Shown: positions 12,507-56,268 of the stretch, in pieces
Layout of the letters: the number at the start of each line of letters is the position of its first letter
How positions within the stretch are numbered: position 1 is the first letter of the stretch
Assembly (NCBI GenBank): GCA_944384855.1
Contig: CALWUY010000011.1
Coordinates: 19,463 to 83,462 of the forward strand
Origin: an uncultured Clostridia bacterium
Lineage (GTDB): Bacteria; Bacillota; Clostridia; Oscillospirales; Acutalibacteraceae
Direction of reading: 5' to 3'
DNA length: 64,000 nt
Notes under the pieces: generated by a model
Databases searched by the model: none
What the model was told of the DNA's origin: nothing
The model's input: only the letters and a program-made list of their open reading frames with translations
Made by a program: the position numbers and the translations under genes

Positions 12507-12598
12507 TGGAACTGTTTCTTGTGCTTCTGTTCAAAGCGGCGTTTAACGGCAGAGATTTCGGTCTGTCAATAGCTTTTTAAGGAAAGGATATTTTTTAT

Positions 12599-14950: not shown

Positions 14951-15004
14951 AATGTGCTTAAACGAAAAACGGAAGCCGCTATTCGGCAAGCGAAGGAGAG
15001 TAAA

Positions 15005-17191
15005 ATGTATAAAAATTCGGAAACAGAAAAGAAGATAGACGAATTGCTGGCGAGGATGACTATAGCAGAAAAGGTTGGTCAGCTTCAACAGATAGGACCG
15101 TCTCCGGTAGGAGGTTTTGAAATATCCGAGGAGGACGCCCTTGCTATGTACAATGCTGGTAAAATTACAGCAGAAGCGTACGAATCCATAATCAATCACA
15201 CTATGATTGATAAGCGTGAAGACAGTATACGAAAAGGCAAAGTAGGTTCGTTTATCGGAATTGACAATGCTGAAGCGGCAAATCATCTTCAGCGTATTGC
15301 GGTAGAGGAAAGTCGTCTTGGGATACCTCTGATAATGGGTATGGATGTCATCCACGGGCATAAAACTATTTTTCCGATACCTTTGGCACAGACCTGCTCG
15401 TTTGACGAGCATACATTTGAGGTATCTTCATCGATAGCGGCACGGGAAGCAAGTGAGGACGGTATCCGTTGGACATATGCGCCTATGGCCGATATTTGCA
15501 GAGACGCTCGATGGGGACGCATCTGTGAGGGATTTGGAGAAGATACATATCTTGCTTCAAAATGCGCGGCTTCGGCGGTAAAGGGATATCAGGGAGATGA
15601 TATAAGCTGTCCGGACCGGCTTGCCGCGTGTATCAAGCATTTTGCGGCATACGGCGCATGTGAGGGGGGCAGAGATTACGATACAGTAGATATGAGTCTG
15701 CCTAAATTTTACGAGACATATCTCCCTCCGTATGCTGCTGCTGTAAATGCGGGAGCGGCAACGGTCATGGCGGCCTTTAATGATTTGAACGGAGTGCCCT
15801 GCACTGCTAATAAATGGCTGCTTAAAAATTTATTGAGAGATAAGCTGGGATTTGACGGCTTTGTAATAAGCGATGCGCATGCAATAGAAGAGTGTGTCAA
15901 TCATGGTACTGCGCTTAATCTCAGTGAAGCAGTGAAACAGTCTATTGAAGCAGGATGCGACATGGATCTTGGTTCAGATGCTTATATATCGTTGCTTGAG
16001 GATATGATCAGAAACGGTGAAGTGAGCGAGACCGACCTTGATAATTCTGTAAGGTCGATTCTTCGCATAAAATATGCTCTCGGTTTGTTTGAAAGACCGT
16101 ATACAGACACGCAGACCTCTTCTTCGCATTTGTGTACTGCTCATCGGAGCGCGGCATTGGAAATTGCAAGAAAATCAGCCGTTCTTTTAAAAAATGAAGA
16201 CGGTCTGCTGCCTCTGAGCAAAAAAGCAAGGCTTGCGGTTGTGGGAGCGGCAGCCGCAGAACGAAATGAGGTTATCGGTGCATGGTGCTGTTCTGCCGTT
16301 GAAGACTCGGCTGTTTCTCTGACAGACGCGCTTGACGAAAAAGGTATAGATTATGTTTTTTCTCCGTGCGTATCGGAATACGGGGCTCTTGACCGTAAAG
16401 CTCTTTTCGATACGGTAAAGGAAGCGGAGATTATAATCGCGGCGCTTGCTTATAAAGCATCGGGCGAGGCCAATTCAATGGCGGAGCTTGAGCTTTCTGC
16501 ACCGCAGCTGGAAATGCTTGATGAGCTTGTGAAAACCGGGAAACCGGTTGTCGGAGTGCTTTTTAACGGCAGACCGCTCGCTCTGGGAAATGCGGTCACG
16601 AAGGTAACGGCATTGCTGGAGGCATGGCACCTGGGAACGGAATCGGGGAATGCTGTAGCCGACATATTGTTCGGAGATTATAATCCTACGGGAAGACTTT
16701 GCGTATCGTTTCCTTATGTTTCGTCACAGCTGCCGTTATATTACAATCATCCTAATACAGGAAGACCGGCAGATGAAAATGTGATTTGGACTTCAAAATA
16801 CAGAGACGTTCCGGTAAAACCTCTCTTTCCGTTTGGGTGGGGGCTGAGTTTTACCGATTACCGCTATAAGAATATTTCTGCTCAGATCAATAACGACGTT
16901 CTATATGTAAGCGTAGACGTAGCCAACACGGGTAAAGCGGCCGGCACGGAAACGGTACAGCTTTATATCCGGCGCCGCAATGCATTGCGCGCAAGACCGG
17001 TGAGGGAACTGAAAGGATACAAAAAAATTTTTCTTCTGCCCGGAGAGCAAAAAACGGTAACTATCGGGATAACACGCAGGGAGACCGGATATTACGATGC
17101 GACTGCGAATTTTATCGACGATGAGAGTGAGCTTGATATATGGATGGCTCACGACAGCAGCTGCGGCGAGCATATAAAAGTTACATTTTAA
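15005..17191 (+). CDS. GH3 beta-glycosidase, probably cytosolic
   Basis: A 728-residue glycoside hydrolase family 3 protein. I chose the ATG at 15005 because AAGGAG at 14993-14998 sits 6 bp before it; an in-frame ATG 51 bp upstream has no such site. The N-terminal barrel carries GMDVIHGHKTIFP and the nucleophile block GFVISDAHA (Asp290). The second alpha/beta domain spans about 385-590, followed by a fibronectin III-like domain (GTETVQLYIR, RPVRELKGYKKI). No signal peptide is seen. Such enzymes release terminal beta-linked glucose or xylose. With the GH31 enzymes it would complete breakdown of a branched oligosaccharide; xyloglucan fragments are one guess. A terminator follows, so it ends the operon. 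Confidence 0.92.
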   Translation: MYKNSETEKKIDELLARMTIAEKVGQLQQIGPSPVGGFEISEEDALAMYNAGKITAEAYESIINHTMIDKREDSIRKGKVGSFIGIDNAEAANHLQRIAVEESRLGIPLIMGMDVIHGHKTIFPIPLAQTCSFDEHTFEVSSSIAAREASEDGIRWTYAPMADICRDARWGRICEGFGEDTYLASKCAASAVKGYQGDDISCPDRLAACIKHFAAYGACEGGRDYDTVDMSLPKFYETYLPPYAAAVNAGAATVMAAFNDLNGVPCTANKWLLKNLLRDKLGFDGFVISDAHAIEECVNHGTALNLSEAVKQSIEAGCDMDLGSDAYISLLEDMIRNGEVSETDLDNSVRSILRIKYALGLFERPYTDTQTSSSHLCTAHRSAALEIARKSAVLLKNEDGLLPLSKKARLAVVGAAAAERNEVIGAWCCSAVEDSAVSLTDALDEKGIDYVFSPCVSEYGALDRKALFDTVKEAEIIIAALAYKASGEANSMAELELSAPQLEMLDELVKTGKPVVGVLFNGRPLALGNAVTKVTALLEAWHLGTESGNAVADILFGDYNPTGRLCVSFPYVSSQLPLYYNHPNTGRPADENVIWTSKYRDVPVKPLFPFGWGLSFTDYRYKNISAQINNDVLYVSVDVANTGKAAGTETVQLYIRRRNALRARPVRELKGYKKIFLLPGEQKTVTIGITRRETGYYDATANFIDDESELDIWMAHDSSCGEHIKVTF

Positions 17192-44958: not shown

Positions 44959-46920
44959 TTATTTGCAGGTATCTTTTAATAGATCGGGAAAATCTTCGGC
45001 TATTGTAATTATAGGAGAGCATGCCCACGGATGACACAGGCTTGTGTTCCATTTCTGATCCTTGCCCCATGCTTCGAATGTAGTAGTCGCTCCTTCTTCA
45101 ATCATATTAAGCCAGTAGTCACCGGATTTGATTAAATCCATTACAATGTCTTTGCGGTTTGCGTTCGCAAGTCCTTTCAGTACGAAATATGAGAAAAAAA
45201 CACCGCAGGAAAGTCTTTTGCCGGAAATGTATTTTACTACTGAATCCAATGCGTTTTCAGGGACAAATTCATAAAACAGCGGCAGCGCGTTTGAATGAAG
45301 GGATGCATGCCGGGTATTTGATGTATCGGTATATATATTGCGCCGGACGTCTAAAAATTCGCGATTGAATGAATTTATCAGCTTTTTTGCTTTCCCCGAG
45401 CATTTTACCCATAACGATGACGCAATTTTATCCCGTATAATATGTGCGCCTGTATAATGCGCGTTAAGTACATTGTGACATACTTTTTTTATGCTGCCGT
45501 CGGTTACGGCATCGTATCCGTCACGCAGATTCTCCGGCCAGTCAATCAGATTCCATTTATCGTTCATATCCTGAAGCAGTCCGTCTGCGCGTTCAAAGGC
45601 AGAAAAGTATTCAAGCATACGGTCTATAACACTCATAAGCTGCAATGCCGTCTGCTTATCGCCGGATAATTTGTAATAATTCCATACCTGCAACGGAAAC
45701 ATAAGAGAAAAATCAGCGATTTCCTGCATATATGAACATGCACCCACTGCCATCAGGCTTTTATGTACGCTTTGTGTATCGGCAAAATCAATAAGCGTTC
45801 TTTTATAAATGTTATAATTTCCCGTAATATACATATACGCCAATCCGGAAACTGTAAAATCTCCCAGATATTCGCCTTTTTCGCGTGTTGGGCAGTCGAC
45901 AAATGTTTCCTGAACCGAGTATTTTAATGTATTTCTGCACAGATTCCATACTTCTGTTAATTTATGGTCATCACAGTCAAGAACAACTGCATCAGAAAAT
46001 TTGTTGTGGCGCACGTTCAATACGATGTCATCTATCTCGAACGGAAGGTCTGATTCGATTTTCATATATCTGAAGGCCTGATAGTCGAATTCTTCAAAAA
46101 AATCATTCTCTCCCGACAGAATAAGAAAATTTTCGTATACACAGTTACATCTCATATTGTATCTGACGTTTTTTCCTTCAGATTCTTCTCCTCTGATTAT
46201 GCGAATTTTCTGAAACTTCTGCCCCCTTATTTTCAATGACAGCATTGCGGATAATTCCTGGTGCGTATCAATAAAATATCCGTTGCTGCACCGCTCCGAT
46301 TCAGGGTGGATTTTTTCAACCGATATTGCCGGGACCGGCTCGCTGTGGAAAGTGTACTCGTTTTCGCACTTGCAGATAGTTTTAACCTCATTGCAAAGAT
46401 TAAAATCAAAATCCTCTAAAAACTGTGTGTCATATCCGGTGGTTCTGTTATTAAAGTATCCGTTTATCTTTTCGCAATGCGTGAAAATTTCGGTTCCTGC
46501 CAAGTGCTTTCCGTTTTTATATATGTCGCAAATCAGCATCATACGGTTATCACCGCTTACCCATACACGGTTTATAAGCCCCTGGTAATATACATGGACT
46601 CGGATGTGGTTTTGCCCTTCCTTCAAATATCCGGATATATCATATATATTGTAGTTGTAATTGGTATGATATGCAGGTCTGACTCCTTGACAAACATATT
46701 TATCGTTGATATAAAGCTTATAATAATCGTCGGCGCTTATTATGATACTGTATTGCTCGGATGTCTTTGCAGAAAAGTAACCCGAGAAATTAACATGATA
46801 ATTATACTGCGCAGATAATTCATTTGATTTGTATGGTTCTTTCTCACGCTTGAAAATATTTATAGGGGATAAATTATAAAAATCCGATGTTGTTATAGGC
46901 TCTGATCTGAAAGAAAGCAT
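44959..46920 (-). CDS. GH78-like alpha-L-rhamnosidase
   Basis: 653 residues without a signal peptide. The N-terminal beta-rich region (about 1-280) resembles the carbohydrate-binding lobes of GH78. The catalytic barrel has the family motif VDCPTREKGEYLGD, then DKWNLIDWPEN, and late EEGATTTFEAW and LCHPWACSP, where acidic residues act in inverting hydrolysis. It is shorter than many GH78 enzymes (900 and more), lacking extra N-terminal domains. Probable role: removal of terminal L-rhamnose from plant glycans or glycosides inside the cell. An AAGGAGT site precedes the ATG; repeated AT-rich boxes upstream suggest local regulation. Confidence 0.85.
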   Translation of the reverse strand: MLSFRSEPITTSDFYNLSPINIFKREKEPYKSNELSAQYNYHVNFSGYFSAKTSEQYSIIISADDYYKLYINDKYVCQGVRPAYHTNYNYNIYDISGYLKEGQNHIRVHVYYQGLINRVWVSGDNRMMLICDIYKNGKHLAGTEIFTHCEKINGYFNNRTTGYDTQFLEDFDFNLCNEVKTICKCENEYTFHSEPVPAISVEKIHPESERCSNGYFIDTHQELSAMLSLKIRGQKFQKIRIIRGEESEGKNVRYNMRCNCVYENFLILSGENDFFEEFDYQAFRYMKIESDLPFEIDDIVLNVRHNKFSDAVVLDCDDHKLTEVWNLCRNTLKYSVQETFVDCPTREKGEYLGDFTVSGLAYMYITGNYNIYKRTLIDFADTQSVHKSLMAVGACSYMQEIADFSLMFPLQVWNYYKLSGDKQTALQLMSVIDRMLEYFSAFERADGLLQDMNDKWNLIDWPENLRDGYDAVTDGSIKKVCHNVLNAHYTGAHIIRDKIASSLWVKCSGKAKKLINSFNREFLDVRRNIYTDTSNTRHASLHSNALPLFYEFVPENALDSVVKYISGKRLSCGVFFSYFVLKGLANANRKDIVMDLIKSGDYWLNMIEEGATTTFEAWGKDQKWNTSLCHPWACSPIITIAEDFPDLLKDTCK

Positions 46921-46948
46921 TTTATTGACTCCTTATATCCTGCTGATT

Positions 46949-47012
46949 ATAAAATATTTTATCATAAAATATTTTCGTTTGCATCATTATTTTAATCAGT
47001 ATAAAATATTTG
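46949..47012. repeat. Three ATAAAATATTT boxes upstream of GH78 gene
   Basis: A perfect palindrome of 14 bp (46949-46962), ATAAAATATTTT (46964-46975) and ATAAAATATTT (47001-47011). A minus-strand TATAAT (46951-46946) overlaps the first box. They may be operators for the rhamnosidase-like gene. Confidence 0.4.
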
Positions 47013-47029
47013 ATTTGTAGTAAATTCAA

Positions 47030-47062
47030 AAAGTCCCAAAGCATAAAAAGCTTCGGGACTTT
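47030..47062 (-). terminator. Original rplM-rpsI terminator, now beyond attL
   Basis: AAAGTCCCAAAGC (47030-47042) and GCTTCGGGACTTT (47050-47062) pair with one mismatch, which becomes a G-U pair in minus-strand RNA, followed by TTTTTGAATTT on that strand. It lies just outside the integrated element; before insertion it would have followed rpsI directly. It now also serves the integrase gene. Confidence 0.75.
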
Positions 47063-47084
47063 CTGTAATATTCACAAAAATAAC

Positions 47085-47101
47085 AATTATCTCTTTGAGA
47101 A
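47085..47101. repeat. attL core, 17 bp
   Basis: Left copy of the 17-bp direct repeat. It differs from the right copy at the very next base on either side (C/T before, A/C after), which defines the repeat length. Confidence 0.85.
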
Positions 47102-47217
47102 ATAAGAACGCTGTTTTATAGTGTTTTGTATCGTTTTGAAAAGTCCGATAAAATAAGGCTTTACCTTGATTATTGTATCATAACTTTTTGTAAATTGCAA
47201 TAGCATTTTGTATTTTC

Positions 47218-47245
47218 GGACATCAAAAGGACATCACGGACATCA
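47218..47245. repeat. Left arm-type integrase sites, GGACATCA x3
   Basis: GGACATCA at 47218-47225, 47229-47236 and 47238-47245, all in the same direction; the last overlaps the stop codon of the integrase gene. Two further copies in the same orientation lie near the right end (53726-53744). Repeated octamers inside both ends are the layout of arm-type binding sites of lambda-like integrases. Confidence 0.65.
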
Positions 47246-48382
47246 ATTTCCATTCAGTTTTAAGGAAATCAAATCAGCAACTTTTGCCTTTGAGCTTTTC
47301 AAAACATCTGCATATACATTCGCTGTTGTTGATACATCTGAATGACCGAGCAACTCACTTACAATTTTTAAGTCAATACCGCTGTTTATCAAAAGTGTTG
47401 CGTTGCAATGGCGTAAACTATGCAAAGTGATAAAGTCAAAGTCTGTACCCTTTACAAATCGTCTGAATTGTGTGTTGAGTCCTGACCTATCAACAAAATT
47501 TCCGCTCTCTGTTGTAAATACCATTTCAGGATAAGTATATAATTTTCCGAGTTTGCTCAACTTTTCATCATTATACTTTTTCTGTTCTCTGAATATATCA
47601 GCCAAAATATCAGATAAAGCAATATATCTGTTACTTGTTGCTGTTTTAGGCGGTTGAAGCCAATGTTTACCGCCCACATCTGTTAAAGTGTTTTCAATGT
47701 GTATTGTCTTATTTTCAAAGTCTATATCTTGCCAACGGAGAGCCAAGCACTCACCCGAACGCATACCTGTAAATAACAATACTTTTATAATGCGGTTGAA
47801 TTGTGTGTTATCCTCAACCATTTTTAACAAGTCTTTTGCTTGATTTTCGTCAAGAAAAGGCTTTTTTTCTTTTGCTGTTTCCGCTTTTGGCAATATAACC
47901 GCCTTTGTGCAGGGCGTTTCTTTGATAAAACCTTGCTCCACAGCACGAGCAAAAACACTTTGCAAAATGACATATACTTTGCGACAGGTTGCAGGCTGAT
48001 ATGTGCGAGTTTTGAAAAAGGCTGTAATCTTTGCAGGGGTAAAATCTTTGAGTTTGATGTTTCCTAATTCAGGAAGCAAATTGTTTTTTATTTGCTTTTC
48101 GTAATTGTAGGCAGTTATCGGCTTTAACTTGTTTTTTGCGTAGTTATCAATAAACCATTCAGCCATTTCAGAAAACCGCATATTTTCGTTTAACGAGGAC
48201 AGCCCTCTACATTTACGCTCAAATTCAACTGCAAATTCTTGAGCCAGTTTTTCAGCCTTTTTCGGTGTAGTATTTTCAGGTGGTTTATATGTAGTTGTTT
48301 TTCTGATTTTCTTTCCGTTCACATCAAGACCGAGAGAAACCACAATTTGAAATGTGTTGCCACGCTTATTTATTGTTGCCAT
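47243..48382 (-). CDS. Tyrosine integrase of the rpsI element
   Basis: 379 residues. An N-terminal arm-binding region (about 1-60, with FQIVVSLGLDVNGKKIRKTT) and a core-binding domain (65-165) precede the catalytic domain. Catalytic residues: Arg208 (FTGMRSGE), Lys246 (PPKTATS), His321 and Arg324 (LHSLRH), His347 (LLGHSDV) and Tyr357 (TANVY). All are present, so the enzyme looks active. It is read toward the attL end and stops 142 bp from it. A consensus promoter lies just upstream (48421-48449). Integration into ribosomal protein genes is known for several Firmicute elements of this integrase type. Confidence 0.96.
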   Translation of the reverse strand: MATINKRGNTFQIVVSLGLDVNGKKIRKTTTYKPPENTTPKKAEKLAQEFAVEFERKCRGLSSLNENMRFSEMAEWFIDNYAKNKLKPITAYNYEKQIKNNLLPELGNIKLKDFTPAKITAFFKTRTYQPATCRKVYVILQSVFARAVEQGFIKETPCTKAVILPKAETAKEKKPFLDENQAKDLLKMVEDNTQFNRIIKVLLFTGMRSGECLALRWQDIDFENKTIHIENTLTDVGGKHWLQPPKTATSNRYIALSDILADIFREQKKYNDEKLSKLGKLYTYPEMVFTTESGNFVDRSGLNTQFRRFVKGTDFDFITLHSLRHCNATLLINSGIDLKIVSELLGHSDVSTTANVYADVLKSSKAKVADLISLKLNGN

Positions 48383-48420
48383 CTTTCACCTCTCCAATAT
48401 TGTTAAATATCGTTTTATAT

Positions 48421-48449
48421 TATTATATATTATCTCTTGTAATTTGTCA
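48421..48449 (-). promoter_or_regulatory. Consensus promoter of the integrase gene
   Basis: On the minus strand TTGACA (48449-48444), a 17-bp spacer and TATAAT (48426-48421): a perfect match to the housekeeping consensus. The integrase start codon is about 39 bp downstream. Confidence 0.85.
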
Positions 48450-48456
48450 ATAAGAT

Positions 48457-48537
48457 AATACATTGTATGAAGTGTATCAAAATCGTATATATTGTATATA
48501 CATTTTCTTATAAAGCAGATAAAAACACAATATATTG
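48457..48537. promoter_or_regulatory. Three palindromes between the opposing promoters
   Basis: ATACATTGTAT (48457-48467), GTATATATTGTATATAC (48484-48500) and ACAATATATTGT (48526-48537) share a TATTGTAT-like core and lie between the -35 boxes of the integrase and excisionase promoters. This is where a repressor would control both. No repressor gene is evident in the element unless the small HTH proteins serve. Confidence 0.55.
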
Positions 48538-48557
48538 TATTTTTCAAAACAAAACGC

Positions 48558-48586
48558 TTGACAAAAGAAAAATATTGTGATATAAT
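48558..48586 (+). promoter_or_regulatory. Consensus promoter of the replication/cargo operon
   Basis: TTGACA (48558-48563), a 17-bp spacer and TATAAT (48581-48586), again a perfect match. Transcription would start near 48593, about 365 nt before the first gene, leaving a long leader. Confidence 0.85.
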
Positions 48587-48592
48587 ACAAAT

Positions 48593-48926
48593 AACAAAAG
48601 AATATTGAACAGTTTTAGTTCCCAAACGACAACCCCAATGTCGTAAAATCAGGCGGTAAATATTGATACAATAAAGTATCATTGCTATTACGAGTGTTTT
48701 ACCGAAAAATTGTCGCTTCCTTTCCGACAGAAAATAGATGGGCTACATAGTGGATAGTTAAACCACATTAAATAAAACGTAAAATGTATGAGGGGAACAC
48801 AGAATAGAACGAGCCAACGAGCGTAATACTCACGAGCTTGTCGACACCTTTTTGGTGTATTCTATTTTGTGTTGTCCTCTTTGTTTTTAGAGAGCAACGC
48901 AAAAAAACGTTGTTCTCTTTTCTTTT
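48593..48926 (+). ncRNA. Long structured leader RNA ending in a terminator
   Basis: The leader contains hairpins ACGAC..GTCGT (48626-48644), an outer CGGTAAA..TTTACCG (48654-48704) around TGATAC..GTATCA (48664-48681), TGTCG..CGACA (48711-48729), and a 20-bp stem (48790-48809 with 48860-48879) that has only one mismatch and two G-U pairs and encloses two smaller hairpins (48810-48840 and 48844-48858), a three-way junction. A terminator follows at 48889-48926. The excisionase-like gene starts 32 bp later with its own ribosome site. The simplest model is transcription attenuation or antitermination; a stand-alone small RNA is also possible. I do not recognise a named RNA family. Confidence 0.6.
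48889..48926 (+). terminator. Intrinsic terminator before the excisionase-like gene
   Basis: AGAGAGCAACG (48889-48899) pairs with CGTTGTTCTCT (48908-48918), with one G-U pair, followed by TTTCTTTT. It stands between the promoter and the first gene it would serve. Confidence 0.85.
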
Positions 48927-48957
48927 GCAAAAAATTATTTGTAAAGGAGTAAAAACA

Positions 48958-49146
48958 ATGACACAGGAAAACAAAGTAACAATGATGACGGTACGAGAGC
49001 TGGCAAGGACAGGAATACTCACAGAACACGCAATCAGATTGATGTTAAAACAAAACAAATTGCCTGTTCTCTATATCGGGAAAAAGGCACTAATCAATTA
49101 TGAAAAGACCGTTGAAATGTTGCAGAGCTTAACAGTTAAGCAGTAA
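48958..49146 (+). CDS. Excisionase-like HTH protein
   Basis: 62 residues with an AAAGGAG site nine bases upstream. The stretch MTVRELARTGILTEHAIRLM followed by KLPVLYIGKKALINYEKTVEML has the shape of MerR-like excisionase/helix-turn-helix domains: a helix-turn-helix, then a wing. Such proteins bind near attachment sites and steer the integrase toward excision. It is the first gene after the structured leader and terminator, the position where control of excision would be expected. It could instead be a simple transcription regulator. Confidence 0.75.
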   Translation: MTQENKVTMMTVRELARTGILTEHAIRLMLKQNKLPVLYIGKKALINYEKTVEMLQSLTVKQ

Positions 49147-49161
49147 GGCGGTGAACGGTTA

Positions 49162-51228
49162 TTGAATGGCTTAAAATCTCAAAGTGTGTGGTTATGTTGG
49201 CGTTATGAAACCGACAAAGACGGCAGACCGACAAAGATACCATATAATGCAAAAACAGGCGGTAAAGCAAAGACCGATTTACCGTCAACCTGGAATGATT
49301 ATTCTGTATCAGAAAAAGCCAAGCCCAAGTATAGCGGTATTGGTTTTGTGTTTGCAAATGGTATTTGCGGAATTGATATTGACGGAACAGACGGACACAC
49401 ACAGGCAAATCCGCTCCAAGATGAAATACTGAAACTGTTTGAGGGTACATATATCGAAAGAAGCCCAAGCGGAAACGGTTTTCATATTCTGTTCAAGTGT
49501 GATATGTCAAGAATACCCAAGACCACAAACAAGAACGGAGCGGAAAAACTTGATACAAAGTATTATCAAAAAAATCCGAAAAATGGGCTTGAATGTTATT
49601 TCAGCGGATTAACAAACAGATATTTTACATTTACAGGTGATAGAGTATCTGACACCGAAACAATAACGGACAAGACCGAAGAAGTCCTATATTTCATAGA
49701 AAAGTATATGTATAAAGGCGGTGAACGATTGAGTAAAAATATACTTGATATAGCAAGGAAATCAAAGAACGGTGCAAAGTTTATTGCTTTATATGATAGG
49801 GGCGATATATCGGCGTATAACAACGATGAAAGCTCCGCAGACATAGCCCTTTGTAATATACTTGCATTCTATCTACAAGGCGATACAAACGCCATTGACA
49901 CAGCTTTTCGAGGTAGTGCTTTATACCGTCAAAAATGGGAGCGTGCAGACTATCGAGAAGCAACAATATCAAAGGCGGTTGCTCTGTGTGGGGGCGAGTA
50001 TTACAAAGGCAGAGGCAGACCAAGAAAAGAGCCTCAAAAAGACGATACAAGCGATTTATTTACACCTGAAGTATTATCTGACTACCTGACCGAAAACGGC
50101 GTTACAGTACGGTTAAACGATGTTACACAGCTTATTGACATTGAGGGTATGCAGGGCGAAAGTCAAGAGCGTTTGCATTCCAATATATCAGCCATTCTGT
50201 ATAGTGAGTTACAGGACAATTACAAGCGGTGCAATATGCAAATTATATCCGCATACCTTGATATAGTGGCAAGCCGTAACAGATACAATCCTGTGATTGA
50301 ATTGCTGAACTCATACGAATATGACGGCAGGGACTATCTTTCGGAATTGTATTCCATTCTACATATTGCCGATGATGACGAATTGAGCCGTACACTTATT
50401 AAAAAATGGTTATGGCAAAGCATATCCCTGTTACATAACGATGAAACAGAGCCATTCGGAGCAGATGGCGTTCTTGTAATCACAGGTAAACAAGGAATTG
50501 GCAAAACCTCTCTTTTCCGAAAGTTAGCACTAAAACCGCAGTTTTTCAAAGAGGGCGTTTGCATTGATTTTAGAGATAAGGACAGTTATATAAAAGCTCT
50601 GTCCTGTTGGATAGCTGAAATGGGCGAAATCGAAAGCACATTCAGAAGCGATATTGAACGCCTGAAAGCGTTTATCACAAATTCCGTTGACGAGTACCGC
50701 CGTCCATACGGCAGGGACAGTATCAGAGCGATACGCAGGACAAGCCTTTGCGGTACTTGTAATAGTGATGAATTTCTTCTCGACCGAACTGGAAATAGAA
50801 GATTTATGACGGTTAGAATTGATAAAATTGACCTTGACCGCTTGCGTGATTTTAATGCCGTGCAGTTGTGGAAACAAATCGAGCAAATGGCATTGAATGA
50901 TATTCAAGGATTTAGATTGACACAGGCTGAACAAAAGCAACTTGCAGAGAGAAACGCCAATCACGAAAAGAAACTCAAAGGCGAAAACGAAATTGAGGAC
51001 ATTCTCAATCAATCCGATAATGCAAGGTATAAAATCGAGTGGTTATATATGACCGTTACAGATTTTAAGCAGTTATACTCCGATGAACTCCGAGCCTATT
51101 CCTCTGCACAAATCGGAAAAGTGCTTGATAAAATGGGATATAACGCAGAAATCCGAAAGTTTGACGGCAAAACTCAAAGATTGAGAGTGCTACCGAAACG
51201 CAATTATAATTTTGTCCATCATATTTAA
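49162..51228 (+). CDS. Primase/VapE-like replication protein
   Basis: 688 residues; the start appears to be TTG (49162), after GGCGGTGA. Residues 1-200 resemble the primase-polymerase-like domain of NrS-1-type phage enzymes (VWLCWRYETDKDGRPTKIPY, then GIGFVFANGICGIDIDGTDG with the acidic GIDID motif). The C-terminal half is a VapE-type P-loop helicase: Walker A GKQGIGKTS (442-450), then AEMGEIES, RLKAFIT, PYGRD and LDRTGNRRFMTV. It probably primes and unwinds the element's own DNA, so the element can replicate after excision. VapE-type genes are common in phage satellites and pathogenicity islands. No origin was identified. Confidence 0.88.
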   Translation: MNGLKSQSVWLCWRYETDKDGRPTKIPYNAKTGGKAKTDLPSTWNDYSVSEKAKPKYSGIGFVFANGICGIDIDGTDGHTQANPLQDEILKLFEGTYIERSPSGNGFHILFKCDMSRIPKTTNKNGAEKLDTKYYQKNPKNGLECYFSGLTNRYFTFTGDRVSDTETITDKTEEVLYFIEKYMYKGGERLSKNILDIARKSKNGAKFIALYDRGDISAYNNDESSADIALCNILAFYLQGDTNAIDTAFRGSALYRQKWERADYREATISKAVALCGGEYYKGRGRPRKEPQKDDTSDLFTPEVLSDYLTENGVTVRLNDVTQLIDIEGMQGESQERLHSNISAILYSELQDNYKRCNMQIISAYLDIVASRNRYNPVIELLNSYEYDGRDYLSELYSILHIADDDELSRTLIKKWLWQSISLLHNDETEPFGADGVLVITGKQGIGKTSLFRKLALKPQFFKEGVCIDFRDKDSYIKALSCWIAEMGEIESTFRSDIERLKAFITNSVDEYRRPYGRDSIRAIRRTSLCGTCNSDEFLLDRTGNRRFMTVRIDKIDLDRLRDFNAVQLWKQIEQMALNDIQGFRLTQAEQKQLAERNANHEKKLKGENEIEDILNQSDNARYKIEWLYMTVTDFKQLYSDELRAYSSAQIGKVLDKMGYNAEIRKFDGKTQRLRVLPKRNYNFVHHI

Positions 51229-51367
51229 TATACGGTTACAGGTTACACGGGTTACAGTAATTTCTATGGAGTATCTAAAAAAAATAAAATAATATATTTA
51301 TGATTATATACTCTATGGAAAAATGCGTAACTCTTGTAACCTCTGTAACCGACAGAGAGGTGAAGCA

Positions 51368-51580
51368 ATGGTTATTCTATCACAAGAGAAAATATGCACG
51401 CATAAGGGCTGTATAGTGTGGTTGCAAAGAATACAAGACTATTCACCGCCTGATTATGCTGAATGGTGCGTACAGTTTGCAGGGAACGGACATTATTTTC
51501 CTGAATATGATGAAGCCGTTGACTATATACGCAAACGAAAATTTTTGAATAATAAACAAATCCAAATGTTAGCGAGGTGA
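51368..51580 (+). CDS. Small element protein of unknown function
   Basis: 70 residues from the ATG at 51368, preceded by GAGGTGA; a longer frame from 51323 lacks a site. It is rich in Tyr, Trp and charged residues (SPPDYAEWCVQF, FPEYDEAVDYIRKRKF) and has two cysteines near CTHKGCIVW. No family is recognised. The stop codon is part of the ribosome site of the next small gene, so it belongs to the element's operon. Confidence 0.6.
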   Translation: MVILSQEKICTHKGCIVWLQRIQDYSPPDYAEWCVQFAGNGHYFPEYDEAVDYIRKRKFLNNKQIQMLAR

Positions 51581-51585
51581 AACAG

Positions 51586-51735
51586 ATGACAGACTATGAC
51601 AAAATGCTCATAGACCTTTTGAATGATAAAATCAAACAATGGGAGCATAAATGGAATGAGCAAAGAAAAGAAATCAATCGACTAAAAGCCGAAATACGAG
51701 AACTCAAAAAGGGAGTGAATACAGATGAAAAGTAA
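51586..51735 (+). CDS. Very small coiled-coil protein
   Basis: 49 residues, with GAGGTGA five bases before the ATG. The sequence is almost entirely charged heptad-like helix (LLNDKIKQWEHKWNEQRKE, then INRLKAEIRELKKG), so a coiled coil is likely. It overlaps the start of the lipoprotein gene by 11 bp. No known function; it could be a regulator or scaffold-like partner. Its tight packing between two other coding genes supports it being real. Confidence 0.55.
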   Translation: MTDYDKMLIDLLNDKIKQWEHKWNEQRKEINRLKAEIRELKKGVNTDEK

Positions 51736-52057
51736 AATTGCTTTTGCGGTGCTTGTATCTGTGTGTTTGATGTTATTTGCAGGGTGCAACAATGAGCCGA
51801 AAATGCTATATCAGAGTGATAGCGTTACAATCGAACGAGAGGGCAATAAAACGGCTGTATATGACCTTTGGGCAGATAAGGAATACTCTTTCCGCTCCGT
51901 TCGTGTAAAGCGTTCTGAAAGCGTTTTCGAGCCTTATACAACGGTTGACACCGATACAATAAAAATCGAGATTATTCCGTCAGGCTTGCGAGTATATGAC
52001 AAGACGGCAAACAAGATTTTTACATATCAGCGAAAAAGTTTACACAATAAGGGGTGA
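51725..52057 (+). CDS. Small lipoprotein of the element
   Basis: 110 residues. A lysine start, a hydrophobic stretch and the lipobox LFAGC with Cys21 as lipid attachment site mark an exported lipoprotein. The mature part is a short beta-rich domain (YQSDSVTIEREGNKTAVYD, EYSFRSVRVKRS, KIEIIPSGLRVYDKTANK). Surface lipoproteins on small mobile elements sometimes exclude competing phages or plasmids, but nothing here proves it. It follows the coiled-coil gene with overlap and is 4 bp before the HTH gene. Confidence 0.75.
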   Translation: MKSKIAFAVLVSVCLMLFAGCNNEPKMLYQSDSVTIEREGNKTAVYDLWADKEYSFRSVRVKRSESVFEPYTTVDTDTIKIEIIPSGLRVYDKTANKIFTYQRKSLHNKG

Positions 52058-52061
52058 TTGA

Positions 52062-52424
52062 ATGGAATTGAAACCAAAAGACGAACACATCTTGACCGCT
52101 CTGTTATCCTGTGGGAGCATAGCAGAGGCAGAGAAAATTTCAGGCGTTAGCCGTACCACAATTTACAACAGGCTTGCAGATGAAACATTCAAGGCAGAAT
52201 ATGACCGCAGGCGTTCACTTGTTTTGAATGAGGCTTGTAATTCACTACAAGCAACATTGACAAAGGCAGTTGACACAATCAGGGGTATTATGGAAGATAC
52301 GGACACAGCTCCGCAGGTGCGATTAAATGCCTCTGCCCTGATATTGCAAAATTGCTTGAAGTACACCGAACAGGCAGACATAATTTCAAGAATTGAAGAA
52401 CTTGAAAAAAGTATGAATAATTAA
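52062..52424 (+). CDS. Small-terminase-like HTH protein
   Basis: 120 residues. The N-terminus has a helix-turn-helix (ILTALLSCGSIAEAEKISGV, then SRTTIYNRLADETFKAEYD) of the kind found at the start of phage small terminase subunits and of phBC6A51-type proteins. The middle is helical (LNEACNSLQATLTKAVDTI, TAPQVRLNASALILQNCLK), as in oligomerising terminase cores. If it is a small terminase subunit it would redirect DNA packaging of a helper phage, a hallmark of phage-inducible islands. The alternative is a DNA-binding regulator. No large terminase is nearby. Confidence 0.55.
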   Translation: MELKPKDEHILTALLSCGSIAEAEKISGVSRTTIYNRLADETFKAEYDRRRSLVLNEACNSLQATLTKAVDTIRGIMEDTDTAPQVRLNASALILQNCLKYTEQADIISRIEELEKSMNN

Positions 52425-52445
52425 ATTATAAGGAGATTTTGAACT

Positions 52446-53108
52446 ATGGCACAATATAGAAATGTAACAGAATTTTTAACCAAAATAAGAGAAACATACA
52501 ACAAAGCAAGAGAAGAATATACCCTCTTGAATGATAGACTTGATAAGATTGAGGCGTTGAGAGTGCGTGATATTAAAAGAGGGTGGGCAAATCCTCAATT
52601 TCAGAAAGAGGACACCGAAACATATCAGAAAAACAAGGCAGAAATCAAAAAGCAACTTTCTGAACTTATCAATAATACCAATGCTGAATACGAAAAAATC
52701 AAGGCTGAATGCGAGGCGGTTTTCGGTGAGTATGACCGAGCAACAGGAAAGAAAGTTGACCTTGCAACTGTTGAATTGTTAAAGAGTGGTATTTTGCGAC
52801 CTGACGAAATCAAGGCACTAATAAACGATTTTAACGGCAATTCCGCAATGCTCCGTATTATCGGAGATTATGCCTATAAAAGAGGCAAGGAAGAAAAGGA
52901 CAATGAGCTGTTTGCTATCGGTACACAATATAAAGATTATCGCATACCATACAATGAACATCTTGACACTCTTATTATGTGGGGGCAAAAGGCTATGCGT
53001 GATGACAGGGGACTTTCTGACGGTATAGCAAGGGTGTATGATGAACAGGCAGACAGGATTTTTGCCGAAGCAGAAAACATCTATATCACGGTGGGCGAAA
53101 ATGAATAA
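52446..53108 (+). CDS. Coiled-coil protein of unknown function
   Basis: 220 residues; an AAGGAG site precedes the ATG. The first 110 residues are strongly helical and charged (FLTKIRETYNKAREEYTLLN, then KAEIKKQLSELINNTNAEYE), and the second half is more globular (RPDEIKALINDFNGNSAMLR, GDYAYKRGKEEKDN, NEHLDTLIMWGQKAM). I recognise no family. Phage scaffold-like or tail-associated proteins can look like this, but so can many others. The next gene begins inside its final codons. Confidence 0.6.
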   Translation: MAQYRNVTEFLTKIRETYNKAREEYTLLNDRLDKIEALRVRDIKRGWANPQFQKEDTETYQKNKAEIKKQLSELINNTNAEYEKIKAECEAVFGEYDRATGKKVDLATVELLKSGILRPDEIKALINDFNGNSAMLRIIGDYAYKRGKEEKDNELFAIGTQYKDYRIPYNEHLDTLIMWGQKAMRDDRGLSDGIARVYDEQADRIFAEAENIYITVGENE

Positions 53109-53250
53109 AGATGTATTGAAACGCCTTGAAATATTGGAAAATGACGAGGTAATCGAAATCGAAGATATTTCAATGTATGAAAGAGAAATTTTCGGAGATG
53201 ACGAGGGGGCAGACGATGAAAAGCATAATCGAAAGATTGAGAAAACTTGA
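53101..53250 (+). CDS. Small acidic protein, tandem paralogue 1
   Basis: 49 residues from the ATG at 53101, overlapping the previous stop by 8 bp. It opens MNKDVLKRLEILEND and is highly acidic in the middle (EVIEIEDISMYEREI). The RL-x-x-LE opening is shared with the next two genes, suggesting a small tandem family. The tail contains GDDEGADDEKHNRK. It also overlaps the start of the next gene by 35 bp. Function unknown. Confidence 0.5.
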   Translation: MNKDVLKRLEILENDEVIEIEDISMYEREIFGDDEGADDEKHNRKIEKT

Positions 53251-53440
53251 ACAGATAGCACCCGATAAGCTGGTTATCCTTGCAGACTTTGACGGAGTGG
53301 AAAAAGAATGTACCGTTGATGAGCTTGAGGCAAGCCCAAATGCAAGCTTTATCCGTGTAATAAGTGGGAACAGCCTTGACGATGTGCAAAGGATATTAAA
53401 CAGAATTGAGAGGATAGCTTATGAACAAGCCAATAATTAA
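53216..53440 (+). CDS. Small acidic protein, tandem paralogue 2
   Basis: 74 residues from the ATG at 53216, preceded by GAGGGGG. It opens MKSIIERLRKLEQI, like its neighbours, then continues LVILADFDGVEKECTVDEL and VISGNSLDDVQRILNRIERI. The DGxxE pattern in the middle is shared with the next protein. Both also end in a helix. No known family, and no sign of export. Overlap with the next gene is 20 bp. Confidence 0.6.
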   Translation: MKSIIERLRKLEQIAPDKLVILADFDGVEKECTVDELEASPNASFIRVISGNSLDDVQRILNRIERIAYEQANN

Positions 53441-53660
53441 AAGACTTACAGAGCTTGAAAAAGAGTTTTTCCGTGATGTGTGGGCTGATATCACATACAA
53501 TGACGGAAGAATAGAGCGGTTAAAGATTATTGATGTTTTGAACTTTTACACCAACGGCAAGACACCGCCAAAGATAACCGATGTATCATTTATCGGTGAT
53601 GTATCACGGCAGGGCATTTTGCCTGACCTTGTAAAATACTTTATCGAAACTAACCGATAA
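53421..53660 (+). CDS. Small acidic protein, tandem paralogue 3
   Basis: 79 residues opening MNKPIIKRLTELEKEF, then VWADITYNDGRIERLKII, ITDVSFIGDVSRQG and LPDLVKYFIETNR. It shares the RL-x-x-LE start and the central DGxxE pattern with its upstream neighbour. It is the last gene of the element and is followed by a strong terminator 12 bp after its stop codon. Function unknown; the family could be regulatory or packaging related. Confidence 0.6.
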   Translation: MNKPIIKRLTELEKEFFRDVWADITYNDGRIERLKIIDVLNFYTNGKTPPKITDVSFIGDVSRQGILPDLVKYFIETNR

Positions 53661-53671
53661 GCAACAAAAAA

Positions 53672-53708
53672 AGCGGTTGAGGATTATACCTTAACCGCTG
53701 ATTTTTTT
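53672..53708 (+). terminator. Terminator of the element operon
   Basis: AGCGGTTGAGG (53672-53682) and CCTTAACCGCT (53689-53699) form an 11-bp stem with one G-U pair, followed by GATTTTTTT. It prevents antisense transcription into rpsI. Confidence 0.9.
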
Positions 53709-53725
53709 ATGTTTTTTGACCGTTC

Positions 53726-53744
53726 GGACATCAAACGGACATCA
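53726..53744. repeat. Right arm-type integrase sites, GGACATCA x2
   Basis: GGACATCA at 53726-53733 and 53737-53744, same orientation as the three copies at the left end and 57 bp from the attR core. Confidence 0.6.
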
Positions 53745-53800
53745 AAAAAGGCTTGCAACAAGGCGAAAACCCCGTAAACAAGCCATTTTTTCGATAAAAT

Positions 53801-53817
53801 AATTATCTCTTTGAGAA
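53801..53817. repeat. attR core, 17 bp, in rpsI
   Basis: Right copy of the 17-bp repeat. On the minus strand it encodes the end of rpsI (Phe-Ser-Lys-Arg-stop) plus two bases, so the gene end is provided by the element after integration. Confidence 0.85.
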
Positions 53818-54201
53818 CTGGGGCGCGCGGCGGGCTCCTTTGAGACCGTACTTCTTTCTTTCCTTCATACGCGGATCGCGTGTAAGGAATCCTGCCTTCT
53901 TAAGCTCGGCTCTGAGCTCGGCGTCAGACTGTAAAAGCGCGCGGGAAATTCCGTGACGGATCGCACCTGCCTGTCCTGTGACTCCGCCGCCTGCAACTCT
54001 GCATACCACGTCGAACTTATCGGTGGTTCCGGTAAGGTTTAAGGGCTGGCGAACAATAAGCTTTAATGTTTCAAGACCAAAATAATCGTCAATATCTCTA
54101 TCGTTAATTGTGATTTTTCCGGTTCCGTTGTAAAGGCGAACACGTGCTACAGAGCTTTTCCTTCTGCCTGTTCCGTAAAAATAAGGCTTTGCTTCAAACA
54201 T
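53803..54201 (-). CDS. rpsI: 30S ribosomal protein S9 (uS9)
   Basis: 132 residues, normal for S9. It has [21 protein letters not shown] at the start, the central [20 protein letters not shown] and the conserved basic tail [18 protein letters not shown], whose final arginine reaches the P-site tRNA in the ribosome. It follows rplM by 17 bp, the universal operon partner. The last codons lie inside the attR core of the mobile element, yet the protein is complete. Transcription now runs into the element from this side, toward its plus-strand terminator. Confidence 0.99.
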
Positions 54202-54218
54202 AGTAAAATGCTCCCTTC

Positions 54219-54647
54219 TTAAAATTCGAGTTTTTCAGGCTTCTGCGCTACTTGAGCATACTCAGAACCGCTGTATATATGAAGTCTGGTAAGCGCCTTG
54301 CGGCCGATTGTCGTATCCGGAACCATGCCTTTTACTGCCAGCTCCATTGCCAGTTCGGGACGTGTCTTCATAAGGGTAGAATACTGTACCTCTTTAAGAC
54401 CGCCTATGAATCCGGTATGACGGCGATAATACTTCTTTTCGAGTTTTTTGCCCGTTAATACTGCTTTTTCAGCGTTTATAACGATAACATGGTCGCCACA
54501 GTCTACATGCGGAGTAAATTCCGGCTTGGTTTTGCCTCTGAGTATATCCGCAACCTTTGTGGCGGTACGTCCGAGCGGTCTGTCTGCCGCGTCGATTATA
54601 TACCATCTGCGCTGAATTTCAGCAGGTTTTGCCATAAATGTTGACAT
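54219..54647 (-). CDS. rplM: 50S ribosomal protein L13 (uL13)
   Basis: 142 residues. [24 protein letters not shown]-like opening ([15 protein letters not shown]), [18 protein letters not shown] and the family motif [14 protein letters not shown] are present, as is [17 protein letters not shown]13 binds 23S rRNA early in assembly of the large subunit. A GGAGGATC site precedes the ATG. The 175 bp upstream, toward the glycosyltransferase gene, are AT-rich and hold no obvious L13-leader structure that I could prove. Confidence 0.98.
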
Positions 54648-54822
54648 AACTGATCCTCCAAAAATATAGTTTTTTACGACTCGTTCGTAAACAGCCTAAA
54701 TATAATACCACAAACAAATCGATTTTGTCAACAGGTTTTTTTCAAAATTTCAATTTAAAGTTTTAAAATCGCTGTTTTCTCTGTTTTTCTCTTGAAATCT
54801 CTCGTTTTCTCGATTATGATTT

Positions 54823-56268
54823 TTAATTTTTATAACTTTTGGTAATCTCGTCTATGCTTACCGACGCATTGTGCGGTATGGGTTTCCATTCAACCTTTTT
54901 AAAAAGAGCGATACACATTGATATTTTCCCGATTTGGTCGAAAATAGGGAAAGTAAGGCAGTACCATATCTTTTTGTACCATTTTATGTACATTATTCTT
55001 TTGTATTCTATTATGAAAATATATACGGCGGTAAAGATGCCTTCGATATATCCCTGCGCAATCCATGCTATAGTGAAGAAAAACAGCCACAGCGCAGCCG
55101 CAATATGACTGCTGTTTGTGACGGGTATATTAAGCCAGTCAAGTATGTTTTTGAGCAGGTCCGGCCCGTAATTAGCGCTGATTTTAAGCGCTCCTCCAAA
55201 AATCAGCGCAACTCTTAAAATATAAATCAGCCACCGCTTGATTACAGAACCCAGTGAACGCGGAAATACTACTGTCAGCATATCAAAGCTCATGAATCTG
55301 AGTCTTATGTTATTAAAAAGCTTTTTGTACCACGGAGCGTTTTTATACTTTTCTTCCTTATTAGCCGCTCCGCCGGTTACAAATATATGTTTTAAAAGCG
55401 TCGGACCGGTTTCCGCCAGCGCCTGCAGATGTCCTTTAGCCCATCTGATTCGCTGACGCATCGCGATTTTTATATCTACCGGCTGCTCGTCGTAAAATTC
55501 AGCACGGTTGTTATATGAAATCTTATACCCGTTTGCCACCGCGTCCGCGCAGAATGCCCTGTCCTCTGTAAGACCGGTATAGTTCCATCCGTCTTTTATT
55601 ACCTCGCTTGCGAACAGAAATCCCGTACCCTGTATTCTGGTGGCTAAATGAAATACCGACCGCATACGGTGCTCGTTTCGGATTGTTCTCAGCCAATGTA
55701 TTCCGTAAGACGCGGCTATCCAGTTGTCAGAAAAGTTTTTTGTGTTTCTGTAAGAAGTTATTATCTTTTCTCCCGCGTCAAATGAGTCATTCATATTGCG
55801 CACGAAATCCTGCTTTAACAGATTGTCCGCATCGAAAATAAAGTACCCTTCGTAATGCTCAATACCGTAGTCGCGTTTTATACATCTTGTAAGATATTGC
55901 AGCGCATAGCCTTTAGTCCGGTGCTCATTGTCAAATCTTTCATAGCATATTGCGCCTGCTTCCCGGGATACTTTTGCCGTGTTGTCTGTGCAGTTGTCAG
56001 CTACAACAAATATATCTATCAAATCTTCCGGATAATCCTGCTGTTTTATACTGTCAATAAGCTGTCCTATTACCGCTTCCTCGTTTCTCGCGGCTACGAG
56101 GATGGCATATTTATGTAATTTTTCTGCGGGTTTGAATTTTCTTGTAAAGAATACACCGCCTATTTTGTATACTGTGCGGTAATCGTAAAGGTAACCTACA
56201 AAATTCCAGATACTGTTTATTATTTTTACAATCCAATTAATAATGTTCGTATAATCACCTATTTTCAA
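54823..56268 (-). CDS. Membrane glycosyltransferase family 2
   Basis: 481 residues. After a first hydrophobic region (about 10-30) comes a GT-A catalytic domain: AILVAARNEEAVIGQLIDSI, VVADNCTDNT, the metal-binding FDADN, GTGFLFASEVI, TGLTEDRAFC and the processive-type motif QRIRWAKGHLQ. Several C-terminal transmembrane segments follow (LWLFFFTIAWIAQGYIEGIF). This layout resembles cellulose/hyaluronan synthase-like enzymes and N-acetylglucosaminyltransferases that make exopolysaccharide or cell-wall polymers. No polymer-specific partner gene is nearby. It is the last gene of the mid-GC part of the window. Confidence 0.9.
   Translation of the reverse strand: MKIGDYTNIINWIVKIINSIWNFVGYLYDYRTVYKIGGVFFTRKFKPAEKLHKYAILVAARNEEAVIGQLIDSIKQQDYPEDLIDIFVVADNCTDNTAKVSREAGAICYERFDNEHRTKGYALQYLTRCIKRDYGIEHYEGYFIFDADNLLKQDFVRNMNDSFDAGEKIITSYRNTKNFSDNWIAASYGIHWLRTIRNEHRMRSVFHLATRIQGTGFLFASEVIKDGWNYTGLTEDRAFCADAVANGYKISYNNRAEFYDEQPVDIKIAMRQRIRWAKGHLQALAETGPTLLKHIFVTGGAANKEEKYKNAPWYKKLFNNIRLRFMSFDMLTVVFPRSLGSVIKRWLIYILRVALIFGGALKISANYGPDLLKNILDWLNIPVTNSSHIAAALWLFFFTIAWIAQGYIEGIFTAVYIFIIEYKRIMYIKWYKKIWYCLTFPIFDQIGKISMCIALFKKVEWKPIPHNASVSIDEITKSYKN

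Follow-up and report, generated by a model that had tools for sequence, protein, structure and literature searches.

The systems closest to the locus described here are the phage-inducible chromosomal islands (PICIs) of Gram-positive bacteria and the Streptococcus satellites of the Javan series. The locus itself is a 6.7-kb element integrated at the 3′ end of rpsI in an uncultured Clostridia bacterium of the Acutalibacteraceae, and the whole stretch of DNA analysed (64,000 nt; GCA_944384855.1, contig CALWUY010000011.1, positions 19,463 to 83,462) is referred to as the window. PICIs are characterised by an end-located integrase opposite xis and pri-rep, a divergent stl/rpr regulator, a size of about 15 kb, the lack of structural and lytic genes, an att site unused by prophages and, optionally, terS or a helper cos/pac, while a helper phage induces them, packages them and suffers interference (PMC6092414). 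Moreover, an average PICI size of 9.5 kb has been given (PMC10803314), and vapE was present in 30 of 44 pneumococcal satellites (PMC6813308). Like PICIs and Javan satellites, the element has int opposite an operon with a xis-like gene (a weak assignment), a primase-helicase gene of the PrimPol-VapE kind and a gene resembling those of small terminases (TerS), with no structural or lytic genes recognised. In contrast to them, it is without a divergent stl/rpr-type regulator, its host is related to gut Clostridia, and its 6,716 bp compare with 8.2-18.1 kb for 35 matched Streptococcus satellite records. As for the att site, tail-like genes and an integrase near rpsI in one genome of the genus (G026) and a group B Streptococcus prophage using rpsI (PMC7487436) both speak against a site unused by prophages. 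Because the size and the regulator differ from the definition and the att site leans the same way, we class the element no more closely than as a PICI-like satellite, although it would be PICI-like in its working. Overall, it is best explained as an integrated phage satellite that targets the 3′ end of rpsI, with a probability of roughly 80%.

Two further systems are comparable. The phage-inducible chromosomal minimalist islands (PICMIs) of Vibrionaceae are likewise very small (6,110 bp for PICMI115) and have no known capsid-remodelling gene, but they adjoin fis and lack homologues of terS, sid and ppi (PMC10803314), whereas the element is integrated at rpsI and possesses a TerS-like gene. Group B Streptococcus elements with the same target were called PICI-like and left unclassified in their source, and are likened to this one by description only (PMC7487436). 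The use of rpsI as an integration target is not new. However, a literature search restricted to open-licence papers found no description of the element's family, of the pair formed by TerS and the adjoining 220-aa protein (P220), or of any satellite family from this gut Clostridia group, in line with an earlier note on this DNA that had suspected an undescribed family.

Attachment site and TerS-like gene

To begin with, the element is bounded by perfect copies of a 17-bp direct repeat, AATTATCTCTTTGAGAA, and measures 6,716 bp from repeat start to repeat start, with a GC content of 37.7% against 40.4% in the remaining window. A 15-bp part of this core, searched with up to one mismatch, occurred at only two sites in the window, both exact (chance expectation 0.03; two occurrences in none of 100 shuffles), so that a repeat common at unrelated loci, which had been named as a possible refutation, was not seen there. 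On the minus strand the right core reads TTC TCA AAG AGA TAA TT, that is, F S K R and the stop codon of rpsI, and the gene is preserved. The hairpin just outside the left core is probably the native rplM-rpsI terminator, displaced 6.7 kb from rpsI (Table 1). The gene order is int on the minus strand, followed on the plus strand by the xis-like gene, PrimPol-VapE, small open reading frames (ORFs), a lipoprotein gene, TerS and P220. The earlier note had described these boundaries, the intact rpsI, the displaced terminator and the mostly one-stranded gene set, and all four descriptions were borne out.

Table 1. Features of the element and its borders (window coordinates)
Feature	Position	Strand	Evidence or remark
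Hairpin, terminator type, just outside left core	about 47031-47061	-	
attL, left attachment core, 17 bp	47085-47101		0-4 changes at left ends of relatives
Three tandem GGACATCA(A) repeats, left end	47217-47246		differ little among 5 left ends, one being that of the window
Tyrosine integrase (int), 379 aa	47243-48382	-	PF00589 1.1e-29
Sigma-70-type consensus promoter facing int	48422-48450	-	12/12
Extended -10 consensus promoter of plus-strand operon	48558-48586	+	12/12
Leader, about 365 nt, structured, without repressor ORF	48590-48957	+	fold z -6.3 vs shuffles
Helix-turn-helix (HTH) protein, 62 aa, excisionase/AlpA/Cox-like	48958-49146	+	weak profile matches
PrimPol fused to VapE-type helicase, 688 aa	49162-51228	+	PF22763 5e-18, PF05272 4e-50
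Small conserved ORF	51371-51580	+	longest form from 51323
52-aa ORF	51577-51735	+	
Predicted lipoprotein, 110 aa	51725-52057	+	LFAGC lipobox by reading; dN/dS 0.67-0.78, fast-evolving
TerS-like small terminase, 120 aa	52062-52424	+	phrog_2538 6e-8
P220, 220 aa, adjoining TerS	52446-53108	+	predicted almost all-helical
Small ORF	53101-53250	+	
Small ORF	53216-53440	+	longest form from 53177
79-aa ORF (p79), kept in relatives	53421-53660	+	dN/dS 0.43
Terminator-like hairpin closing plus-strand operon	53672-53699	+	
Two tandem CGGACATCAAA repeats, right end	53725-53746		identical in 6/6 right ends, window included
attR, right attachment core; contains the end of rpsI (four codons and stop)	53801-53817		
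rpsI, host gene, full-length	53803-54201	-	

A total of 38 matches to the TerS-like protein were found among 50,697 phage records, namely 35 Streptococcus satellite phages (30-36% identity), two fecal records and a single Clostridioides phage (E 9e-3), while 72,556 plasmid records gave none. Moreover, in two of the comparison loci (L067 and L084) a TerS homologue lies immediately 5′ of a Terminase_3 large subunit (TerL). The placement of these relatives, in satellite phages or directly before TerL, strengthens the interpretation as a satellite, a term already used in the earlier note. Purifying selection on four genes was evident from the ratio of nonsynonymous to synonymous changes (dN/dS), calculated against the window genes with our own script: int, 0-0.06 (four pairs); TerS, 0-0.08 (four pairs); P220, 0.10-0.12 (two pairs); and VapE, 0.15-0.24 (three pairs). 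Two pairs each were used for the lipoprotein and p79.

These data also bear on an integrative mobilisable element (IME) moved by conjugation, its relaxase borrowed in trans through an origin of transfer (oriT). In streptococci rpsI is a known site of IMEs and of integrative and conjugative elements (ICEs), for which it is a hotspot (PMC7487436), and IMESag-rpsI, of about 9 kb, is integrated at the same 3′ end (PMC5090054). However, IMESag-rpsI has a MobV relaxase, whereas Pfam recognised no relaxase, conjugation or structural family in ten proteins of the element (the 52-aa ORF lay outside the scan), as the earlier note had claimed for relaxase and transfer genes, and Pfam and PHROGs together found no phage structural or lytic gene in the same ten. 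The strong purifying selection on the TerS-like gene, with relatives in phage satellites and in no plasmid record, likewise argues against conjugative movement, which we regard as very unlikely.

Recombination, expression and replication

The integrase contains the strings GMRSGE, PKT, HSLRH, LGH and Y357, which we take to be the recombinase motifs; with these intact and its Pfam match, the protein looks intact, in keeping with the active-looking integrase of the earlier note. Tandem repeats of the CGGACATCAAA type lie near both cores and are likely arm-type sites of the integrase, as would fit their preservation at five left and six right ends (those of the window counted). Promoter-like sites numbered 26 in all against 22.9 in shuffles, and only the divergent pair between int and the operon scored 12/12. 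The leader that follows includes a terminator-like stretch (48889-48918) and could be an attenuator. It gave no match in plasmids, phages or IMG/VR; as a pattern it was found in 391 class genomes only in its own genome; and by BLAST it matched seven of 398 family genomes including its own, the other six over 37-64 nt, five of them overlapping the promoter. Rfam returned a single match on 46500-55000, below the gathering score (E 0.88) and taken as chance.

Neither a regulator ORF nor a repressor remnant was found in 48383-48957, a place where relatives have candidates: DUF6076 proteins, which we infer to be regulators, in L012 and L013 (Pfam) and in L014 and L018 (by resemblance), and an HTH repressor-like gene in L019 (Pfam) and in an IMG/VR contig (by resemblance). 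The missing gene would fit a satellite that is now immobile and may have lost regulated induction, but int, VapE, TerS, the arm repeats and the att sites look intact, and the two promoters and the strongly folded leader persist, which makes immobility very unlikely.

The 688-aa protein, as its sequence indicates, joins an NrS-1-like primase-polymerase to a VapE-type helicase; it has PDB matches to 7pds and 6a9w and contains the strings DID and SGNGFH and a Walker A motif, in keeping with the VapE-like replication noted earlier. The 62-aa HTH protein has homologues at the same position in relatives, and its profile matches all fall below the cut-off (TIGR01764, 0.01; phrog_10045, 0.0042; PF10743, 0.092). 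In an integrated satellite these parts would work as follows. Int would bind the tandem CGGACATCAAA arm sites and recombine the 17-bp core, probably with help from the small HTH protein during excision, and a circle of 6,716 bp would be released, on which the PrimPol-VapE protein would start replication and unwind the DNA. The satellite-encoded TerS would then present element DNA to the large terminase of a helper phage, and P220 probably assists packaging or particle assembly, a role guessed from its position beside TerS.

Relatives, P220 and exchange of modules

A search of genome contigs for relatives yielded six loci. Besides the window, eight related loci stand beside rpsI (L013, L014, L015, L016, L019, L020, L121 and L122), so that occupation of this site is repeated; L013 and L014 have the complete gene set, L015 and L016 reach rpsI and are cut by contig ends, L020 (genome G045) is a reduced copy cut by a contig end, and L017 is a fragment. 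The recombinase, the regulator, the replicase and the packaging end are exchanged separately among relatives, as their gene mixtures demonstrate. L012 shares 96.6% nucleotide identity with the operon over 4,568 bp, yet it has a serine recombinase and adjoins tmRNA, its ends not being delimited. The IMG/VR contig is 90% identical in int and 93-95% in the TerS-P220 end, with a different AAA_25 helicase, an HTH repressor-like gene (by reading) and right neighbour DNA other than rpsI. Furthermore, L019, from the same genus, combines an AAA_25 helicase with an HTH regulator, and L121 (G844) and L122 (G789), from other genera of the family, carry TerS and P220 beside rpsI.

TerS and P220 occurred together in L012-L016, L019, L065, L067, L119, L121, L122, L123 and the IMG/VR contig; the profiles used were built partly from loci that they then matched (for P220, from L012, L013, L019, L065 and L067), and window copies (L001, L025, L026, L059, L083 and L093) were removed before these profile searches. 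Pairwise E-values for P220 were 8.6e-23 (L013), 7.5e-10 (L065) and 9.8e-10 (L067). Its structural model (pLDDT, the predicted local distance score, 79.9; built from six sequences) had no significant match in PDB or BFVD. A PADLOC match to PD-Lambda-1 (1.8e-4, residues 3-88) and weak Pfam, PHROGs and NCBIfam matches were set aside, as a matter of opinion, as coiled-coil similarity. Four proteins resembling P220 by eye or by place (284 aa in L066, 249 aa in L020, a 238-aa ORF in L087 and 251 aa in L088) were not counted because the P220 profile did not find them, and a 140-aa TerS-like ORF in L020 was likewise left uncounted. In L065 (MT837364.1, 1921-6736), Gp15 (PF06854) and a tape-measure-like gene (phrog_1535) come after the relatives of TerS and P220, and P220 may also be part of phages or tail-carrying elements.

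A broader proposal joins several claims: that an undescribed family of gut-Clostridia satellites, all very small, is built on a portable TerS-P220 cassette, which passes among elements with unrelated recombinases, targets, regulators and replication genes; that P220 is a new packaging or capsid-redirection factor; and that a leader RNA attenuator replaces the regulator gene. Taken jointly, this is tentative and rather doubtful. The element is near the lower size limit, yet keeps a dedicated TerS, and its close relatives reveal the exchanged modules, making the minimum gene number of a satellite and the function of P220 testable questions. TerS and P220 relatives are also present in human fecal records (L065, L067 and L119).

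Decay of a complete prophage down to its early region and terS is most improbable as an origin, for although prophages also carry integrase, replication and terS genes and reduced copies are known (L020 in G045, cut by its contig end, and L056 in G022), similar compact sets recur in L012, L013, L014 and the IMG/VR contig, dN/dS is far below 1 for int, VapE, TerS and P220, and TerS homologues are concentrated in satellites.

Several observations weigh against the interpretation as a satellite. The size, 6.7 kb, is well under that usual for PICIs. The fold search with TerS gave no significant match, the phage protein 2ao9 ranking first (E 0.11) and NV1 TerS eleventh (E 0.45), both weak, and the xis-like gene is likewise weakly supported by profiles. 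The TerS-P220 pairing is inconstant: within the fetched DNA, TerS appeared without a P220 match in L084-L088 and, unlike the element, in the Streptococcus satellites L068 and L069, while L124 has P220 without a TerS match; in addition, the P220 relative of L065 stands beside tail genes. Relatives are rare, amounting, own genome included, to 4 of 119 genomes for the integrase (E ≤1e-80), 6 of 391 for TerS and 5 of 398 for P220, and VapE (E ≤1e-100) was found in one of 70 genus genomes, the own one. Scans of IMG/VR gave close relatives in one contig only, where the satellite shares the contig with prophage-like genes instead of standing alone. The fecal records, which are Mexican, are marked UNVERIFIED and are tied to a particle-purified virome by description only (PMC8361208). 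No helper phage was identified for the window element, and the one clear TerL of the host genome (G000:C33) is preceded by a small protein that, by reading, is unlike this TerS. Finally, it is inferred that the element excises, depends on a helper and is packaged, as is what the arm repeats and P220 do.

Other rpsI loci, fecal records and possible helpers

The earlier note had called for genomes with an empty site, and these were found among genus mates and not for this species. rpsI was matched in 59 of 70 genus genomes and the best 30 places were kept, including the window and G022; the other 28 were compared. A script found a terminator-like hairpin at 27 of the 28, starting 18-47 nt past the last rpsI codon in 26 and at 75 nt in L034, beside a transposase; at L031 the hairpin was overlooked by the script, yet is visible. 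The exact 17-bp core was present at five loci (L027, L031, L034, L039 and L055). Downstream DNA was read over 2.2 to 15 kb at 24 loci, the other four (L040, L049, L053 and L054) ending within 360 nt, and 22 of the 24 showed neither a tyrosine recombinase nor a relative of the L012 serine recombinase; the two with a tyrosine recombinase were G054 and G026. A second core copy (≤3 mismatches) lay about 155 nt away in G041 and G001; G021 and G057 have one farther off, which is probably a chance match. The majority of these sites thus look empty, although a nearby hairpin is not proof of emptiness, since some could be the ends of other elements.

The best filled and empty pair, from genus mates, is G022 against G059 and G009. 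G022 holds an internally deleted 286-bp copy (L056, 517-802) in which nothing but the two ends is left, each with its core. Beyond the second core, it shares 15 nt, a short flank, with the DNA just after rpsI in G059, and 25 query bases (second core plus 8 nt of flank) were found at the rpsI end of both G059 and G009, where 12.5 and 14.5 kb downstream, respectively, contained no recombinase and no second core (≤3 mismatches). For the species itself, a BLAST of the left flank against the genus genomes gave no exact empty site: 55 of 70 matched, mostly in a stretch near 44.5-44.9 kb, and close to the junction the matches were limited to pieces of about 40-70 nt.

Some smaller observations concern the same loci. 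The 286-bp copy of G022 retains the right-end arm repeats, and just beyond the rpsI terminator of that genome (L056, 848-862) 15 bp of the att core occur inverted, as does a similar copy with one mismatch in G059 (L055). A hairpin-containing segment, about 150 nt long, runs from rpsI to a second rpsI 3′ end in L127 (G041), L145 (G001) and L019 13936-14106 (G056), 17 bp of the second end being an exact duplicate in G041; it may be a scar, or else a small mobile repeat using the rpsI site. In G026 (L148 and L058), a tyrosine integrase and genes that read as tail-like lie within 9 kb downstream of rpsI, with ends not delimited, and the site may be used there by a prophage or an element related to one.

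Among the fecal records, L066 (5,080 bp) and L067 (11,458 bp), both "Bacteriophage sp." from human samples, have 124-bp terminal overlaps, which suggest that they are circular; L065 and L119 have none. L066 contains a VapE relative and a weak TerS match. In L067, where part of the proteins were scanned, TerS, TerL and P220 were recognised together with int, primase-helicase and an HTH gene, whereas reading of its ORFs revealed no capsid gene. L100-L105, six further fecal records whose integrases are distant, had no TerS or P220 match and were not used.

The predicted lipoprotein changes more quickly than its neighbours, which would fit, speculatively, a surface exclusion protein. IMGVR_UViG_3300032167_007831 also carries prophage-like genes at 8429-15254, of which TerL was identified by Pfam and PHROGs and the rest by reading; a upp-like gene separates them from the satellite, and they are a possible helper. 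The host's own TerL (PF04466 and PF17288) belongs to a packaging and head cluster, head-like by reading, between host-like genes (L092, 1250-8947), with no integrase seen in its 14-kb contig; the cluster would be a remnant prophage or, perhaps, gene-transfer-agent-like, and packaging of the latter kind has been reported in Ruminococcaceae and Oscillospiraceae (PMC12946183).

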